Shown in pieces: positions 4,712 to 36,199 of a DNA stretch of 64,000 nt. The DNA is taken from contig NZ_JAOWCB010000013.1 of NCBI RefSeq assembly GCF_026420845.1, positions 1 through 64,000 of the forward strand. Reading direction: 5' to 3'. Numbering within the stretch: position 1 is the first letter of the stretch; the number at the start of each line of letters is the position of its first letter. The notes under the pieces were generated by a model that was not told the DNA's origin, did no database searches, and worked only from the letters and a program-made list of their open reading frames with translations. The DNA comes from Streptomyces sp. PR69 (GTDB lineage: Bacteria > Actinomycetota > Actinomycetes > Streptomycetales > Streptomycetaceae). A program made the position numbers and the translations under genes.

Positions 4712-5206
4712 ATGAGCGACGCGGAGCCCCTGCCCCATGCCCACCCCCGGTTCGCCGCCGCCCTGCGCGAGCTGAACCTGGTCGTCGAGGTACGGCGTTT
4801 CCCGGACGCCACCCGGACCGCCGCACAGGCCGCGGCGGCCATCGGCTGCACGGTCGGCGAGATCGTCAAGTCGCTGATCTTCGAGGCGGACGGCGCACCG
4901 GTGCTGGTGCTGATGGACGGGGCGTCACGGGTGGACGTCGAGCTGGTGCGGCGGGAGCTCGGCGCGGACTCGGTGCGGCGGGCGGGCGCGGAGCTCGTGC
5001 GGGAGGCCACGGGGTACGCGATCGGGGGCGTGCCGCCCTTCGGGCACCGCACCAGGACCCGGGTGCTGGCCGACCGCCGTCTGCTGGACCACGAGGTGGT
5101 GTGGGCGGCGGCCGGAACGCCGCACACCGTGTTCCCCCTCGACCCCAAGACGCTGATCGCCCACGCGGGCGGGACTCTCGTGGACGTGCGCGAGCGTACG
5201 GCGTGA
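4712..5206 (+). CDS. YbaK/EbsC family aminoacyl-tRNA deacylase
   Basis: Cytoplasmic single-domain protein of 164 aa of the YbaK/ProX superfamily, which hydrolyses mischarged aminoacyl-tRNA such as Cys- or Ala-tRNA(Pro). The family signatures visible are TVGEIVKSLIF around residue 50 with the conserved Lys, TGYAIGGVPPFGH around 100, and a C-terminal HTVF segment. The length is normal. Its stop overlaps the start of the EamA transporter by 4 bp (GTGA). The exact substrate cannot be read from sequence. Confidence 0.9.
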   Translation: MSDAEPLPHAHPRFAAALRELNLVVEVRRFPDATRTAAQAAAAIGCTVGEIVKSLIFEADGAPVLVLMDGASRVDVELVRRELGADSVRRAGAELVREATGYAIGGVPPFGHRTRTRVLADRRLLDHEVVWAAAGTPHTVFPLDPKTLIAHAGGTLVDVRERTA

Positions 5207-29224: not shown

Positions 29225-30247
29225 GTGAGACGCCATCGCACTGCCGCCGCCGGAGCCGCCGCCGCGGCCGGCGCCCTGCTCGCCGGCGCACTCTCGGCCA
29301 CCGCCGCCACCGCCGCCACACCCTCCGCCCCTCCCGCCTCCACAATCGCGTCCTTCACCCAGCAGCAGACGCAGCGGCAGGCACAGGACTTCTGGACCCC
29401 GGAGCGGATGCGCAGCGCCACCCCGCTCGACGCGCTTCCGCTGGACGGCGGCGCGCTCAAAGCCCTGAAGGCCCCCAAGACGCTCAAGGCCCCCGGCGCG
29501 CAGGCCGAGACGACCGTCGTGCCGCCCACCGCCCCCGCTTCCTCCAGCACCCTCGGCCCCGCCGCCTTTCCGCAGGCCGGCGGCGCCTGGAACGACGGCG
29601 GCGCGGTCGTGAAGACCTCCGGCCGGGTGTTCTTCACCTTCCAGGGCCGTACCGCATCCTGCTCCGGCAACTCCGTCACCAGCGCCAACGGCAGCACCGT
29701 GATCACCGCCGGGCACTGTGTGAAGTACCAGGGCAGCTGGCACACCGACTGGATCTTCGTGCCCGCGTACGACAACGGCCAGGCCCCGTACGGGCAGTGG
29801 ACCGCCACCCAGACGATGGCCATCGACCAGTGGGCGTCCAGCGAGAACATCAACTACGACGTGGGCGCGGCGGTCGTCGCACCGCTGAACGGCAAGACGC
29901 TGACAGAGACGGTGGGCGCACAGGGACTGGAGTTCAACGCCGGCTACAACAAGCGCATGTACGCCTTCGGCTTCCCGGCCGCCGACCCGTACGACGGCTC
30001 AAAGCTGATCTACTGCAGCGGAAACAGCAGCAAGGACTGGCTGTTCTCGCAGGATCACAGCCTGGGCTGCAATATGACGGGCGGCTCCAGCGGCGGCCCC
30101 TGGTTCACCTCGTTCGACGAGGCGACGGGCACCGGGCTGCAGACCTCAGTGAACAGCTTCGGCTATGTCTTCCTGCCGAACCGGATGTTCGGGCCGTACT
30201 TCGGCAATGAAGCCAAGGCCCTGTACGACAAGGCCCAGGTTTCGTAA
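29225..30247 (+). CDS. secreted trypsin-like serine peptidase
   Basis: Exported protease of 340 aa. A twin Arg start (VRRHRTAAAG) and an Ala-rich hydrophobic stretch form the signal peptide. A propeptide-like region (about 35-110, rich in Lys-Ala-Pro) follows. The chymotrypsin-fold triad is His in TAGHC, Asp in NYDVGAAV and Ser in GGSSGGPW. GTG 29225 is preferred because AAGGAG ends 6 bases before it; ATG 29201 would put that site inside the gene. Similar to bacterial V8/glutamyl-endopeptidase-like extracellular proteases. Confidence 0.9.
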   Translation: MRRHRTAAAGAAAAAGALLAGALSATAATAATPSAPPASTIASFTQQQTQRQAQDFWTPERMRSATPLDALPLDGGALKALKAPKTLKAPGAQAETTVVPPTAPASSSTLGPAAFPQAGGAWNDGGAVVKTSGRVFFTFQGRTASCSGNSVTSANGSTVITAGHCVKYQGSWHTDWIFVPAYDNGQAPYGQWTATQTMAIDQWASSENINYDVGAAVVAPLNGKTLTETVGAQGLEFNAGYNKRMYAFGFPAADPYDGSKLIYCSGNSSKDWLFSQDHSLGCNMTGGSSGGPWFTSFDEATGTGLQTSVNSFGYVFLPNRMFGPYFGNEAKALYDKAQVS

Positions 30248-30287
30248 AAGGCACCCTCGAATCCGCCGGGCCCGGCGGGGGCGTCCC

Positions 30288-30333
30288 CTCAGCCCTCGCC
30301 GGGCTCGCGCAGCTCAGCCCTCGCCGGGCTCGC
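30288..30333. repeat. 21-bp direct duplication at the 3' end of the TetR remnant
   Basis: The same 21 bases (beginning CTCAGCCCTCGCCGGGCTCG) occur at 30288-30308 and 30313-30333, a 25-bp period. The second copy contains the stop codon of the TetR remnant, so the first is a tandem duplication beyond the gene end. Confidence 0.8.
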
Positions 30334-30764
30334 CCAGCGCGATCGCGAGCAACGCCCGCACCTCCGGCAACAGTTCACGGGAGCCGCCCCGGTCGTCCAC
30401 CAGCCGGCCGAAGACCAACCCGTCGACGCAGTGCAGAAAGGTCACGGTCCGCCCGGCCGCCTCCGCCCGCGGCACCCCGTGCGCGACGAGGAACGCCTCC
30501 ACGCCCGCGCGCCGCGTTCTCGCGCGGGCGCAGGATCTCGCGCAGCTCGGCGTGGTGCACGCTCTCCACGACGCAGGCGTAGCGGGCCAGCGCCCGCCGC
30601 CGTCCGGGGCCGAGCTGGTCACGGCAGAACGCGGCGATGAGCGCGGCCAGTTCGTCGGGGTCGCCGGGGGGCGACGCGCCCGCTCCGGCGGCCTCCAGCT
30701 CCGCCTGGTCCAGCTGGACGAGCCGCGCCACGACGGCGGAGAGCAACGCCGCCGGCTCTCCCGT
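30314..30764 (-). pseudogene. TetR-family regulator remnant, no HTH, one frameshift
   Basis: On the minus strand a C-terminal ligand domain is readable in two frames. First comes AALLSAVVARLVQLDQAELE followed by ALARYACVVESVHHAELREI; then, after a shift near 30500-30540, GVEAFLVAHGVPRAEAAGRT, FLHCVDGLVFGRLVDD and RELLPEVRALLAIALGEPGE before TGA 30316-30314. The N-terminal DNA-binding domain is absent because similarity begins only where the divergent monooxygenase similarity also begins, near 30765. It is not functional as it stands. Confidence 0.65.
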
Positions 30765-31700
30765 ATGGACGGGGCCGCGCTCGAACGCGCCCTGGGCGCC
30801 TCGATCATCGGCATAGCGCGCTCCGCGCTGCACGCCGCGCTGCGCGACGCCCTCCCGCCGGGCGCGCTCCGCACGGGCGTCGAGGTCACCGGGGTCGATC
30901 CGCACCCCGCGCCCCGGGTGACGTACAGGGAGTGCGGGGAGTGCGGAGAGGACGGAGAGCGCGAGGAGGGCGCAGCCGTCGCGGAGGCCGATCTGGTGGT
31001 CGCCGCCGACGGGGTGCGCAGCGCGCTGCGCTCCCGGCTCCTCCCCGGCGCGCCGGGCCCGGTGCACAGCGGCGCGACCGTGCTGCGTGCCATCACGGCA
31101 CGGCCGGCCGGGGTGACGGAGGACTTCGAGCTCACCTGGGGCCGGGGGTCGGAGTTCGGCCATATGCGGCTGCCCGGCGGGGCGGCCGAATGGCATGCGG
31201 TCCTCCGCGCCCCCGCGGGTGTGCGCTACCCGGACCCGCTGGCCGAGATGCGCCGGCGTTTCGGCCGCTGGCATGACCCGGCCCCCGCGCTGGACGCCAC
31301 CGACCCCGCGTCCGTGCTCCACCACGACATCGCCGAACTGGCCGTGCCGCTCCCCTCCTTCACGGCGGGGCGCACCGCGCTGCTCGGCGACGCCGCCCAC
31401 GCCATGACCCCGCATCTGGGCCAGGGCGCCTGCCAGGCGCTGGAGGACGCGGTGACCCTGGCCGCCGCCGTCGCCGACGAGCCGTCCCTCGACACGGCCC
31501 TGGCCCGGTACGACGCGGAGCGCCGCCCCCGCGCCCGGGCGATCGCCCGGGCCGCCCGGCTGGCGGGGCGGTTGGGCCCCCATCTGAGCAACCCCCTCGC
31601 CGTAGCCCTGCGCAACACGGCGCTGCGGCTGACCCCTTCGCGGGCCATGGTGGCGGGGGTGCTGCGGCACGCCGACTGGACCCCGCCGGCCCGCCGGTAG
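30765..31700 (+). pseudogene. FAD-dependent monooxygenase lacking its N-terminal FAD-binding region
   Basis: Starting from an internal ATG 30765, 311 residues match the later two thirds of PHBH-fold FAD-dependent monooxygenases: MDGAALERALG, the VVAADGVRSALR (DG) motif and ALLGDAAHAMTPHLGQGAC (GD motif). The first 90-100 residues with GxGxxG are missing. The gene abuts a headless TetR gene on the other strand, so one deletion appears to have removed both 5' ends and the shared promoter. The remaining frame is intact to TAG, so the loss may be recent. Confidence 0.7.
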
Positions 31701-31759: not shown

Positions 31760-33600
31760 GTGGCGCGGCTGAGGGTTCCGGTGGGTGCGGACGCGGAACG
31801 GTGGGTCACGCGCGCCGGATGCCGCCGGGTGCTGCTCGTCGTCCACAATGTGACCTCCGCGTCCCGGCTGCTGGATGTACTCCCGCTCCTCGGCGGTGAT
31901 CTGCGGCTCCAGCTGCTGGCCACCTGCACGGGGTCCTCGCCCTTCCTGGCGGGCGTGCCGGAGCTGCTGGCAGAGGCGGGGCTTCCGGTCCTGCCGTGGG
32001 AGCAGGCGAAGCGGACTCCGGTGGATCTGGCGGTGTCGGCCAGTTACGGGGGCGAACTGGGTCTGCTGCAGGGCAAGTTGGCCGTACTGTCACATGGGGT
32101 CGGTTACAATAAGAGACTGGCGCGACCGGCGACCGGCGACCGGCGACCGGCGACCGGCGACCGGCGACCGGCGACCGGCGACCGGCGAGCCCCCTTCATG
32201 GCCCTCCCTCCACGCCTCCGCCCGTTTTCGGGATGTCGCCCGACTGGCTGCTGCACCACGGCCGCCCGCTCGCGACCGCCACGGTCCTCTCCCACCCCGA
32301 GCAGCTCGAACGCCTCGCCTCCGCGTGTCCGGAGGCCGCCCCCACGGCCGTACTCGCCGGAGACCCCTGCTACGACCGCATCCTCGACGCCCTCCCCCAC
32401 CGGGAGCGGTTCCGCCGCGCCCTCGGCGTCTCGCCGCACCAGCGGCTGGTCCTCGTCAACTCCACCTGGTCGCCGCGCTCGCTCTTCGGCAGTGAGCACG
32501 GCGAGAAGGAGGGGGACGAGCTGCTGCCCTGGCTGCTGCCGCGCCTGGCGGCGGAGCTGCCGGCCGACGAGTACCGGAGCGCCGCCGTGCTCCACCCGAA
32601 CATCTGGTACGGGCATGGCCCCGGCCAGCTGCGGGCCTGGCTGGACCGGGCCCGCCGGGCCGGGCTCACCCTGGTCCCGCCGCTCGACGGCTGGCGGCAG
32701 GCGCTGATCGCGGCGGACTGCGTCATCGGCGACCACGGCAGCGTCACGTACTACGCGGCCGCGATCGGCGTCCCCGTCGTGCTGGGCGCGTTTCCGCACG
32801 ACGACCTCGACCCCGGCTCGCCCGTCGCGGCCCTCGGCCGTACGGCCCCGAGGCTGCGCCGCGACACCGCGCTGCGCCCGCAGCTCGACGCCCTGGTCGC
32901 GACCCATCGGCCCGACCGCTACACGGACCTGGCCGGTCAGGTCAGCTCGTCGCCGGGAGACTCGGCCCGACTGCTGCGCCGGCTGTTCTACGAGCTGATC
33001 GGCATCCCGGAGCCCACCGCCCGCGCGGCGCTGCTCGACCGGCTCCCCCTCCCCTCGTACGAACCCGCCGAACGCACCGCGCCCGTACGGGTCCTCACCC
33101 GCGTGCTCACCGCCGGGCCGCCGCCCGAGGTGGCCGTCACCCGCTATGCCGACGTGGACGGCGAACCCGAAGGCCCGGACGACGCGGCCGTGCACACGGC
33201 GGTCCACGAGGACACCCAGGACCCCGGCCGGCTCCACCTCGCCGATGTGATCGTGCGCCACGGCGCCCCGGACGACCCGCGCCTCGGCCCGCCCGCCGCC
33301 TGGGCCGCGGAGGTGCTCGCCCGCCACCCGTACTGCGGGCTCGCGGCCTACGTCGACGGCCCCGACCGCTGCACCGTCCGCACGCGGGACGGCGCGCTGG
33401 TCCGCCTCACCGCCCGCCCCGACCCATCCGGCCGCCCGAACCTGTGCGACCCCGCGGCGTACGCCTCCGCCCTGCATGCGTGGCTCGCCTCCGGCAAGTC
33501 CCTGGCGGAGGCGGCGCCGGAGCTGGTCGTGGTCACGGGGGCGGGGAGGCACGGGGTGAGGCTGGAGGCTTCTGTTTCCCCTCCCCGCCCCTTCCCGTAA
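31760..33600 (+). pseudogene. glycerophosphotransferase-like (GT-B) gene split by a frameshift at a 7-bp tandem repeat; possibly phase-variable
   Basis: GTG 31760 (GGGGAGG upstream) opens a frame with VLLVVHNVTSASRLLDVLP, LATCTGSSPF and AVLSHGVGYNKRL (to about 32120). The continuation lies in another frame from about 32200: VFGMSPDWLLHHG, CYDRILDALPHRERFRRALG, VLVNSTW, AAVLHPNIWYGHGPGQ and VIGDHGSVTYYAAAIGVP to TAA 33600. The order of motifs (HG-x-G, CYDR, NSTW, GDHGS) recalls CDP-glycerol glycerophosphotransferases. The two halves meet at nine copies of GCGACCG. Read as drawn, the product is cut off; internal ATG 32233 could yield only the C-terminal half. Some annotations of similar proteins as translation factors seem unjustified. 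Confidence 0.7.
32122..32184. repeat. heptanucleotide tandem repeat, GCGACCG x 9
   Basis: Nine perfect copies with a broken tenth (GCGAGCC). A 7-bp unit leaves all three frames open, encoding the same heptapeptide cycle (A-T-G-D-R-R-P). Each gain or loss of one unit shifts the frame by one. Confidence 0.95.
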
Positions 33601-33763: not shown

Positions 33764-36199
33764 CTACGACGCCCCCAGCTCCGCCAGCCTCCCCCGCACC
33801 CGCGCCGCCGACACCCCGTCCCCCGCCCGCCCGTACAGCTCCTCCGCCACCCGCAGATCCGCCGCCTCCTCCGCCCTCCGGCCCAGCCGCCGCGCGCAGC
33901 GCGCCCGCAGCTCCGCCGCGTCGGCGTGCTGGAGCTCGGCGCCTTCCCTGCCCATGGTGGAGATGGCCTCGTCGAGGCAGACGCGGGCGAGCTCCGGGTC
34001 GCCCGCGTCGAGATGGGTCTCGCCCAGACTCATATAGACGCGGCCCTCGTTGTAGCGGTCGCCGCCGCTCTCCAGCGCGCGGAACTGCGCCAGTGCTTCG
34101 TGCAGCAGCCGCACGGCGTCCTCATAGCGCTCCTGTCCGCGCAGGGCGCGGCCGATGTGATGGGCCAGCAGCGCCCGCGCACGCGGCACGTCCCGCTCAC
34201 CGTCGTCACCGGGGCGGATGCGCTCCAGGGTGCGCCGGGCTTCCCGGAAGCAGGCTTCGGCGTCCCGGTGCCGCCACTGCTTCAGCCTCAGCAGCCCGAG
34301 CGCCTCGACGGCGCTCGCCCGCCCGCGATGGTGGCCCGCCGCCCCGTCCACCTCGGCGGCTTCGGTCAGCGCCGTCTCCGCCTCGCTCACCCGTCCGACG
34401 CCCATGTGCGCGAAGGCGAGCTGGACGAGGACCCTGGCCACGGCGCGCGGATCGCCGAACTCGTCCTTGGCGCAGCGGCGTGCCGCGGCCACCCCGCGCC
34501 GGTGGGTGTCGGTCCACTGTTCATGGAAGCCGAGGCGCAGATGCAAGCCCCACATGGCCTCGCACAGCTGCCACGCCAGCGCGTCACAGCCGTACTGCTC
34601 GGCCGCCCTGACGGCCGCGGCCAGGTTCTCCCGCTCGCGGCGGAGTTCGGCGAGGGCGGCGCGCCCGTCCTCGGGGTCGCGGCTCCCGGCGGCCGTCAGC
34701 CCGGTGTACGCGGGGCCGAGCCGCCAGCGGCCGGGGATGACGCGGACGTCGGCGGCCGCGGCCGACCGCAGCTGTACGGCGACGGTGCGGCGGATCGCGG
34801 CGGCGATCGCACGCTGCCCGTCCACCGCCTCCGCCTTGCGGCGGGCGTGCGCGCGGACGACGTCATGGAAGCGGTACCGCTCCTCGGCGACCTCCTCGAT
34901 CAGATGGACGTCGGCGAGCTCTTCCAGCAGCGCCCGCGCGCGGGCCTCGCCGACGTCCGCCGCCTTCGCCGCCATCGGCACGGTGACGGCGGGCCACGCC
35001 CAGACACCCGCCAGCCGGTACAGCCGCGCGCAGTCGTCGCTCAGCTCCGCGTACGCCTCGTCATGCACACTCTCCACCGGCGTGCCCGGCACCGGCACAG
35101 GCACAGGCACACCGGGATCGGGGGAGGCCGCCTCGGACAACTGCCGTTCCACCGCCTCCCAGGTGAGATGCCGGCGTACGGCGACCCGCGCGCCGGTCGT
35201 GCACAGCGCCAGCGGAATCCCGGCGCACCGCGCGGCGACCCTGGCCACCGCCCCCAGCTCCTCCCGCGGCTCCTCCCCCTCCTCCTGCGCGCCGCCCGCG
35301 ATACGCGTGAGCAGCCGTACGGAGTCGTCGTCGGACAGCGGCCCGAGCGGAATGTGCCGCGCGCCGAAGTGGGCCACGAGCGGGTCGAGGCGACGGCGGC
35401 TGGTGACGATGACCAGGCAGTGGGCGGACGCCGGCAGCAGCGGCCCGACCTGCGGCGCGGAGGCCGCGTCGTCGAGGACGACCAGCAGCCGGCGGCCGGC
35501 CGTGCAGTCGCGGTACAGCTCCGCCTGCCGCTCCTGCCCTGCGGGCATTCTGCCGGGCGGCACACCGAGCCGGTCCAGGAACCGTACGAGCACCTCGGAG
35601 GGGGCCAGCGCGGTCGCCTCGGACGCCCCGGCGAGATCCGCGTACAACTGGCCGTCGGGGAAGCGTTCCTTGAGCAGATGCGCGGTGTGCGCGGCGGTGG
35701 CGCTCTTGCCGATCCCGCCGGGGCCGGTGAGCAGGACGACGGCGGGGGCGCCGTCGGCGCGGTCCTCGCCGGCCGCCGCCTGTGCGATCCGGCCGGCCAC
35801 GTCGGCGCGATCGGTGAAGGAGGCCGTGGCGGGCAGCAGCATCCGCGGCCGGGAGACGGCATGCGTGCCATGGACGACGGCTGGAATGGCGCGCGGGCCG
35901 AGCAGTTCGGCCTCACGCGCCCAGTCCGCCACCTCGCGGGCGCGGTCCGGCGAGCTGCGGGCGTACCGCACCAAGCGCTCCGCCAGCGCGCGCCGTTCAG
36001 CCTCGGTGACGGGCAGCTCAGGCTCGCCCTCCCGGCCCTCCTGGCCGTCGTCGCCTCCCTCGTCTCCGCGGTGGGCTCTGCGCACCAGCCCTAACAGCGC
36101 CTCGGAGCTGCGCCGTCCCATCTCGCCGGTCGCGCCGTCCAGGGCGCCTGCGCTGACGGCGCCCAGCGCCGACAGCACCACCGTGAGCAACGCTTCCAC
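33764..36199 (-). CDS. STAND NTPase: NB-ARC domain with C-terminal TPRs
   Basis: Protein of 811 aa. A hydrophobic N-terminal helix and charged linker (1-100) lead to the NB-ARC ATPase: P-loop GPGGIGKSA near residue 160, Walker B LLVVLDDA near 240, an RNBS-type VIVTSRRR, and GIPLAL. A winged-helix region (YRFHDVVRAHA) and at least five TPR-like repeats follow from about 570. Unlike AfsR/SARP proteins it has no DNA-binding domain, so it is an AfsR-like switch with an unknown effector part. It could be a regulator or a defence NLR; the sequence does not decide. Confidence 0.85.
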   Translation of the reverse strand: MEALLTVVLSALGAVSAGALDGATGEMGRRSSEALLGLVRRAHRGDEGGDDGQEGREGEPELPVTEAERRALAERLVRYARSSPDRAREVADWAREAELLGPRAIPAVVHGTHAVSRPRMLLPATASFTDRADVAGRIAQAAAGEDRADGAPAVVLLTGPGGIGKSATAAHTAHLLKERFPDGQLYADLAGASEATALAPSEVLVRFLDRLGVPPGRMPAGQERQAELYRDCTAGRRLLVVLDDAASAPQVGPLLPASAHCLVIVTSRRRLDPLVAHFGARHIPLGPLSDDDSVRLLTRIAGGAQEEGEEPREELGAVARVAARCAGIPLALCTTGARVAVRRHLTWEAVERQLSEAASPDPGVPVPVPVPGTPVESVHDEAYAELSDDCARLYRLAGVWAWPAVTVPMAAKAADVGEARARALLEELADVHLIEEVAEERYRFHDVVRAHARRKAEAVDGQRAIAAAIRRTVAVQLRSAAAADVRVIPGRWRLGPAYTGLTAAGSRDPEDGRAALAELRRERENLAAAVRAAEQYGCDALAWQLCEAMWGLHLRLGFHEQWTDTHRRGVAAARRCAKDEFGDPRAVARVLVQLAFAHMGVGRVSEAETALTEAAEVDGAAGHHRGRASAVEALGLLRLKQWRHRDAEACFREARRTLERIRPGDDGERDVPRARALLAHHIGRALRGQERYEDAVRLLHEALAQFRALESGGDRYNEGRVYMSLGETHLDAGDPELARVCLDEAISTMGREGAELQHADAAELRARCARRLGRRAEEAADLRVAEELYGRAGDGVSAARVRGRLAELGAS

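Follow-up and report, generated by a model that had tools for sequence, protein, structure and literature searches.

Phase variation driven by repeats is standard textbook material for host-adapted pathogens; for Streptomyces, the published example of phase variation that we came across is the G tract in pglX. In a stretch of 64,000 nucleotides from Streptomyces sp. PR69, here called the window, a heptanucleotide array lies exactly where the two halves of a presumed glycopolymer-enzyme gene part into different reading frames. The question that this locus raises is whether the array is a frame switch of a functional gene or a scar in a broken one. Our answer is that the gene is very likely a conserved, slippage-driven phase-variable (contingency) gene of a surface polymer, a reading in which the slippage, the switching within a clone and the surface role are inferred.

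The array and the split gene

Only one period-7 row was found by TRF in the 64-kb window, an array at 32122-32188 with 9.6 copies and 100% matches. This array is 67 nt long and contains nine full GCGACCG units, the last of which ends at 32184. The features around it are as follows.

30165 to 31700, plus strand: upstream ORF with a match to FAD monooxygenases in its later part only (Pfam, 272-463 of 511 aa)
31760 (GTG) to 33600 (stop), plus strand: the gene split by the array
31760 to 32119, plus strand: N part, about 120 codons, with the conserved C-terminal motif SHGVGYNKRL; its profile and start region are conserved in relatives
32120 to 32223, plus strand: entire N-to-C linker, 104 nt, which is 2 modulo 3 and leaves the halves out of frame
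32122 to 32188, plus strand: tandem array (GCGACCG)9.6 from TRF, the proposed frame switch, at the same junction as in relatives
32224 to 33600, plus strand: C part, from VFGMSPDW to the stop, intact in its own frame, which is +2 relative to the N frame
33764 to 36199, minus strand: convergent NB-ARC/TPR gene with an AfsR-like match below the cut-off

Read from the GTG at 31760, the N frame passes through the array and ends at a stop at 32707, and the C frame has an ATG at 32233 and the stop at 33600. The distance between 31760 and 32233 is 473 nt, or 2 modulo 3, so that nine units leave the gene out of frame; by the same arithmetic, 4, 7, 10 or 13 units would join the halves. The original prediction had claimed both the split at nine GCGACCG units and these four copy numbers, and the TRF call, the ORF coordinates and the offset confirm it on both points. 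Nine perfect copies are not a chance product, and arrays of other units occupy the same site in relatives. No other run of three GCGACCG units was found in the strain's own genome assembly (6.57 Mb, 104 contigs).

The upstream ORF may be frameshifted or mis-started. In the three loci examined, the next gene downstream lies on the opposite strand and is of the NB-ARC/TPR type (the window and L039) or of the TPR/AAA type (L082).

Predicted fold of the in-frame product

Neither half of the window gene matched a family in Pfam, and NCBIfam gave nothing credible for them. Weak matches to PF04464 were obtained with 10 of 28 in-frame relatives at E values up to 1 (best E 0.0016), and by the gathering-score criterion member 1 reached 12.3 bits against 22.1. 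A sequence search of PDB chains with A1 returned one match only, at an E value of 0.56. The fold was modeled by AlphaFold2 for L082, a short-linker relative whose halves are in frame (570 aa, alignment of 28). The model has a mean pLDDT of 86.6, with junction residues 128-131 below 50, and its residues 24-391 match GT-B enzymes. The top match is TagF (Z 22.0, rmsd 3.9 over 328 residues, 10-12% identity), with residues 25-392 of the model placed on 351-722 of TagF; UDP-GlcNAc 2-epimerases are tied with it or near it, at Z 21.5 and below, within 1 Z unit. Judged from the matched ranges, His117 of the model, which belongs to the invariant SHG motif immediately ahead of the array, falls near TagF residue 444, a position given as mutated in PDB titles. 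That this residue is the catalytic base is an inference, made without a residue alignment.

The in-frame product is thus predicted to be a GT-B enzyme with TagF among its best matches. It is probably a cell-surface polymer enzyme, with the function drawn from the modeled fold alone and with both the substrate and the surface location inferred. The idea of a glycopolymer-type enzyme, put forward in the original prediction, is accordingly upheld by the fold (TagF, Z 22.0), while in Pfam the window halves match nothing and the in-frame relatives match PF04464 only weakly.

Sampling and typing of relatives

Using the C part alone as query, which cannot favour a frame, we scanned 84,980 species genomes. 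Of the 119 loci obtained, the best 80 were retained, and 75 of these come from records titled Streptomyces. The best 80 of 119 together with the window form the frame-neutral set, in which 74 loci were usable. Among 392 genus genomes searched with the protein, 171 contained homologues, with matches of 55% identity or more in at least 90 genomes; the remaining rows among the matches listed are 37-48% identical. Most loci with 55% identity or more were taken for typing, members of the family and order were then added, and the junction was typed by profile HMMs of the N and C parts. Typing covered 258 loci in total, 228 of them unique and 211 usable, with one genome per species throughout. They are drawn from two families of the order, and the feature, previously viewed in a single strain, is present in both.

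Left out of the final count were 30 duplicates, 11 loci in which a part was incomplete or another lesion was present (L060, L088, L173, L178, L190, L191, L200, L206, L253, L297 and L300) and six loci with N runs in the linker (L076, L089, L094, L136, L234 and L246). The N-C pair is missing in L083, L105, L129, L197 and L237. Retention by score over-represents in-frame loci in L118-L147, L208-L237 and L278-L282, and the choice of many of L238-L250 and L283-L297 for split N and C matches over-represents out-of-frame loci. Because these biases are opposite, the best 80 C-part loci and the window supply the neutral figure.

Arrays at the junction in relatives

Reading back from the C part, we observed that most of the best 80 C-part loci have heptapeptide repeats at this junction, flanked by SHGVGY(N/T)K(K/R)L and (V/T)FGLSP(E/D)W, and often with the N part in another frame than the C part. 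The 7-nt units in the linkers of relatives include ACACCGG, GGGAGCC, ACACCCA, GAGTCAC, GCCGGAT and AAGGGAC, and a few arrays of 8 or 10 nt also occur in the linker DNA of the best 80. With a threshold of at least 3.5 copies, 163 of the 211 usable loci carry a junction array. The unit is 7 nt long in 145 of them, 10 nt in nine, 8 nt in six, 5 nt in two and 4 nt in one; none of the 163 was assigned a unit length divisible by three (in L107 a 9-nt run and a 7-nt run are equally long, and the locus was entered as 7). After merging of rotations, 40 distinct unit sequences remain. The reverse complement of GCGACCG is found inside this gene in L145, L172, L175 and L191.

The junction is also where such arrays concentrate. 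In 868 kb around 80 loci, 64 perfect period-7 runs of four or more copies lie at the junction as against three elsewhere, and one of these three belongs to a second homologue, in L058, where it occupies the same junction. Among runs elsewhere in the 868-kb flanks, 8 of 14 have periods divisible by three.

Another of the off-junction period-7 runs is a 12-copy GCCGCGA array (L097:8661-8745) just upstream of the start region of another homologue, where it could act on the expression of that gene. A sister subfamily with lower C-profile scores, some members of which come from another family of the order, likewise has non-triplet arrays at this junction (L205, L254, L255, L258, L260, L264-L266, L283-L285, L287, L290-L292, L299 and L058:493-592), with 5-nt units in L283 and L284. 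In L173, an insertion of about 1 kb of foreign-looking DNA separates the N part from the array.

Frame state and its change

The 163 array loci are in frame in 92 cases (ON) and out of frame in 71 (OFF), or 92/39/32 by frame class, and loci without an array are in frame in 46 of 48 cases. The two exceptions are L189, in which a remnant of 3.3 copies is left, and L201, which has a stop and whose C part is broken; the 48 include distant paralogues, all 17 of which are in frame. In the frame-neutral set the classes are 29/17/15 with an array and 13/0/0 without, so that 29 of 61 array loci are in frame as against 13 of 13 (Fisher P 3e-4). The in-frame share of the neutral array loci, 48%, exceeds one third (P 0.02). 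An earlier count under simpler rules had given 27/17/15 with an array and 14 of 14 in frame without.

Close relatives differ in copy number and frame. L038 (out) and L039 (in) are one 10-nt unit apart with flanks 95.6% identical, and L145 (in) and L175 (out) are one 7-nt unit apart, with linkers otherwise identical and flanks 94.0% identical. L099 and L101 (93.8% identical) have different units, GAGTCAC against CGCGATC, in linkers of an equal 51 nt, and some close pairs share the frame, for example L066-L068 and L114/L130. On a FastTree tree of the C part (136 loci, with support below 80 at 50 of the 133 inner branches), 107 array loci show 33 changes of frame state. Shuffled frame labels give a mean of 35.4 changes and a minimum of 27, and 22% of shuffles are as low as the observed 33; on this tree, these 107 loci show no phylogenetic signal in frame state relative to shuffled labels. 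The unit sequence changes at least 38 times on the same tree and the unit length nine times.

Variation of copy number, frame and unit sequence at the junction gives the predicted phase variation strong comparative support. A fixed copy number in all relatives, which would have refuted it, was not found among the relatives typed, and in-frame fusions are present in dozens.

In L060 the array (junction near 4884-4992) is out of frame and a second indel about 30 codons downstream restores the N frame, possibly as a compensating mutation or as a sequencing error.

Selection on both halves

Median dN/dS was calculated from pairs of at least 86% identity. For the C part it is 0.26 in OFF/OFF pairs (17), 0.255 in ON/ON pairs (47) and 0.243 in mixed pairs (34); for the N part the values are 0.15, 0.14 and 0.15, respectively. 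A C frame of at least 393 codons is present in 71 of the 71 OFF array loci used (at least 400 codons in 68 and 393-394 codons in three), with two OFF array loci that have a split C part, L190 and L200, set aside. Purifying dN/dS and intact C frames together indicate that the OFF alleles are no ordinary pseudogenes. Both halves are under purifying selection in OFF alleles, as estimated from pairwise alignments in which branches are shared among pairs and ancestral time, possibly spent ON, is included.

These values bear directly on a neutral explanation, in which the repeat would simply have grown in a loop that tolerates it, the gene being dispensable or in decay, and the frame would be meaningless. 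The junction is predicted to be a disordered loop, with a pLDDT under 50 at residues 128-131, and a few loci carry further lesions (L190, L200, L201, L173 and L060), but dN/dS is about 0.26 or lower in both halves with OFF alleles included, the C frame is intact in all 71 OFF array loci used, OFF is almost restricted to array-bearing loci, and the junction units avoid multiples of three, as against the 8 of 14 flank arrays with such periods. We consider neutral growth unlikely. It is very unlikely that the frame fails to decide expression, through programmed ribosomal frameshifting or re-initiation at the C part. A start codon does occur within the first 20 C-frame codons in 48 of 63 OFF and 54 of 82 ON loci, yet an SD-like motif precedes this early start in only 8 of 63 and 10 of 82, respectively, so that OFF loci are not enriched. 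Programmed frameshifting would use a fixed slippery site and a fixed frame relation, a criterion that is not met since all three frame relations occur; the two out-of-frame classes (39 and 32 of 163) and the 40 unit sequences leave no fixed slippery site, and OFF read-through past the junction stops anywhere from 13 to 483 codons on. The scattered frame ends also rule out a conserved second product in the OFF frames, a candidate that we considered separately.

An error of assembly or sequencing in the array, with the gene truly in frame, might be suspected from the N runs inside the linker in six loci and from the 104-contig assembly of the window. The window array is short, however, at 67 nt, and OFF is also the state of 20 of 46 array loci from genomes of five or fewer contigs (a hand-made list and no neutral sample); error could not yield 40 units at one site, and we give this explanation hardly any credence.

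A proposed frame switch

Three properties of a contingency locus are present instead, and reversible switching within a clone, with a phenotype, is an inference. A non-triplet tandem repeat lies inside the coding sequence (in the window and in 163 of 211 usable loci), its copy number differs among close relatives with a change of frame (L038/L039, L145/L175), and the halves are intact and under selection in OFF alleles (L190 and L200 set aside). In the contingency-gene reading, which we favour, array units would be gained or lost, presumably by slipped-strand mispairing; with a unit length that is no multiple of three, every step of one unit moves the gene into another reading frame. The locus would thereby act as a heritable on/off switch that is thrown at random. 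In one frame of three (ON), the N and C parts would be joined by a floppy heptapeptide-repeat linker into a full GT-B polymer-type transferase, with the repeat loop near the putative active site. In the other two (OFF), the C part would not be made and the donor-side domain would be lost. The sequenced strain would be OFF and one unit away from ON. Selection would preserve both halves and, across the group, the non-triplet unit length, while the unit sequence would be repeatedly rewritten; the benefit is inferred and may be, for example, phage escape or wall variation.

We also think it fairly probable that the target of selection is the arithmetic of the repeat (a unit length that is no multiple of three) rather than its sequence. 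A contingency gene would then have been kept over two families of soil actinomycetes. At a single loop, in a wall-polymer-type transferase as well as in its sister subfamily, arrays would have been lost, rewritten and formed anew with units of 4, 5, 7, 8 and 10 nt.

Comparison with known systems

TagF, a wall teichoic acid polymerase (CDP-glycerol glycerophosphotransferase), resembles the product in predicted fold, at 10-12% identity, and we know of no array in TagF. The contingency loci of Haemophilus, Neisseria and Campylobacter are alike in having frame-toggling non-triplet coding repeats, often in surface-glycan genes; they belong to host-adapted bacteria, whereas the present gene belongs to soil actinomycetes and has its unit rewritten and its length kept off multiples of three. 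The gene would work in the manner of neuO, in which a heptanucleotide repeat in the coding sequence of an E. coli K1 capsule enzyme changes by slippage, with ON in one copy class of three (PMC13001214). The likeness extends to the surface-polymer enzyme, but neuO, a capsule O-acetyltransferase gene of the CUS-3 prophage, is described there with an AAGACTC repeat at its 5' end. The Streptomyces repeat lies about 120 codons in, by the putative active site, with many units, and its product has a TagF-like predicted fold. The pglX gene of the Streptomyces coelicolor phage growth limitation system varies in phase by frame change at a G tract (PMC4365076). It shares the genus and the frame-change principle, and differs in that the tract lies in a methyltransferase gene of a defence system, in contrast to a multi-base unit in a transferase gene.

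Compared with neuO and pglX, this gene differs in where its repeat sits, how varied the units are, how widely it is spread among taxa and which enzyme it encodes. No report of this locus was found in the open-access literature, as far as its texts were accessible, and the available part of a study of frame transitions in prokaryotes names Streptomyces once, with nothing found there on this gene (PMC3711429). If the frame switch is real, its maintenance across many soil species, in a gene whose predicted fold resembles that of teichoic-polymer transferases, would point to fluctuating selection outside hosts, with phage predation as the obvious candidate, and it could explain differences in wall or phage phenotypes from colony to colony. 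The locus would also be a natural experiment on repeat evolution, with many units at one site and a length modulo three that is apparently selected.

GCGACCG outside this gene

A GCGACCG-specific element was considered and ruled out: 0 of 30 kept loci with three GCGACCG units had the strict motif of this gene within 3 kb, and most relatives carry other units. Runs of three GCGACCG units occur in 95 of the 392 genus genomes, and heptamer arrays, including those of GCGACCG, are found elsewhere in Streptomyces genomes (L051:179-249 and loci L008-L037).
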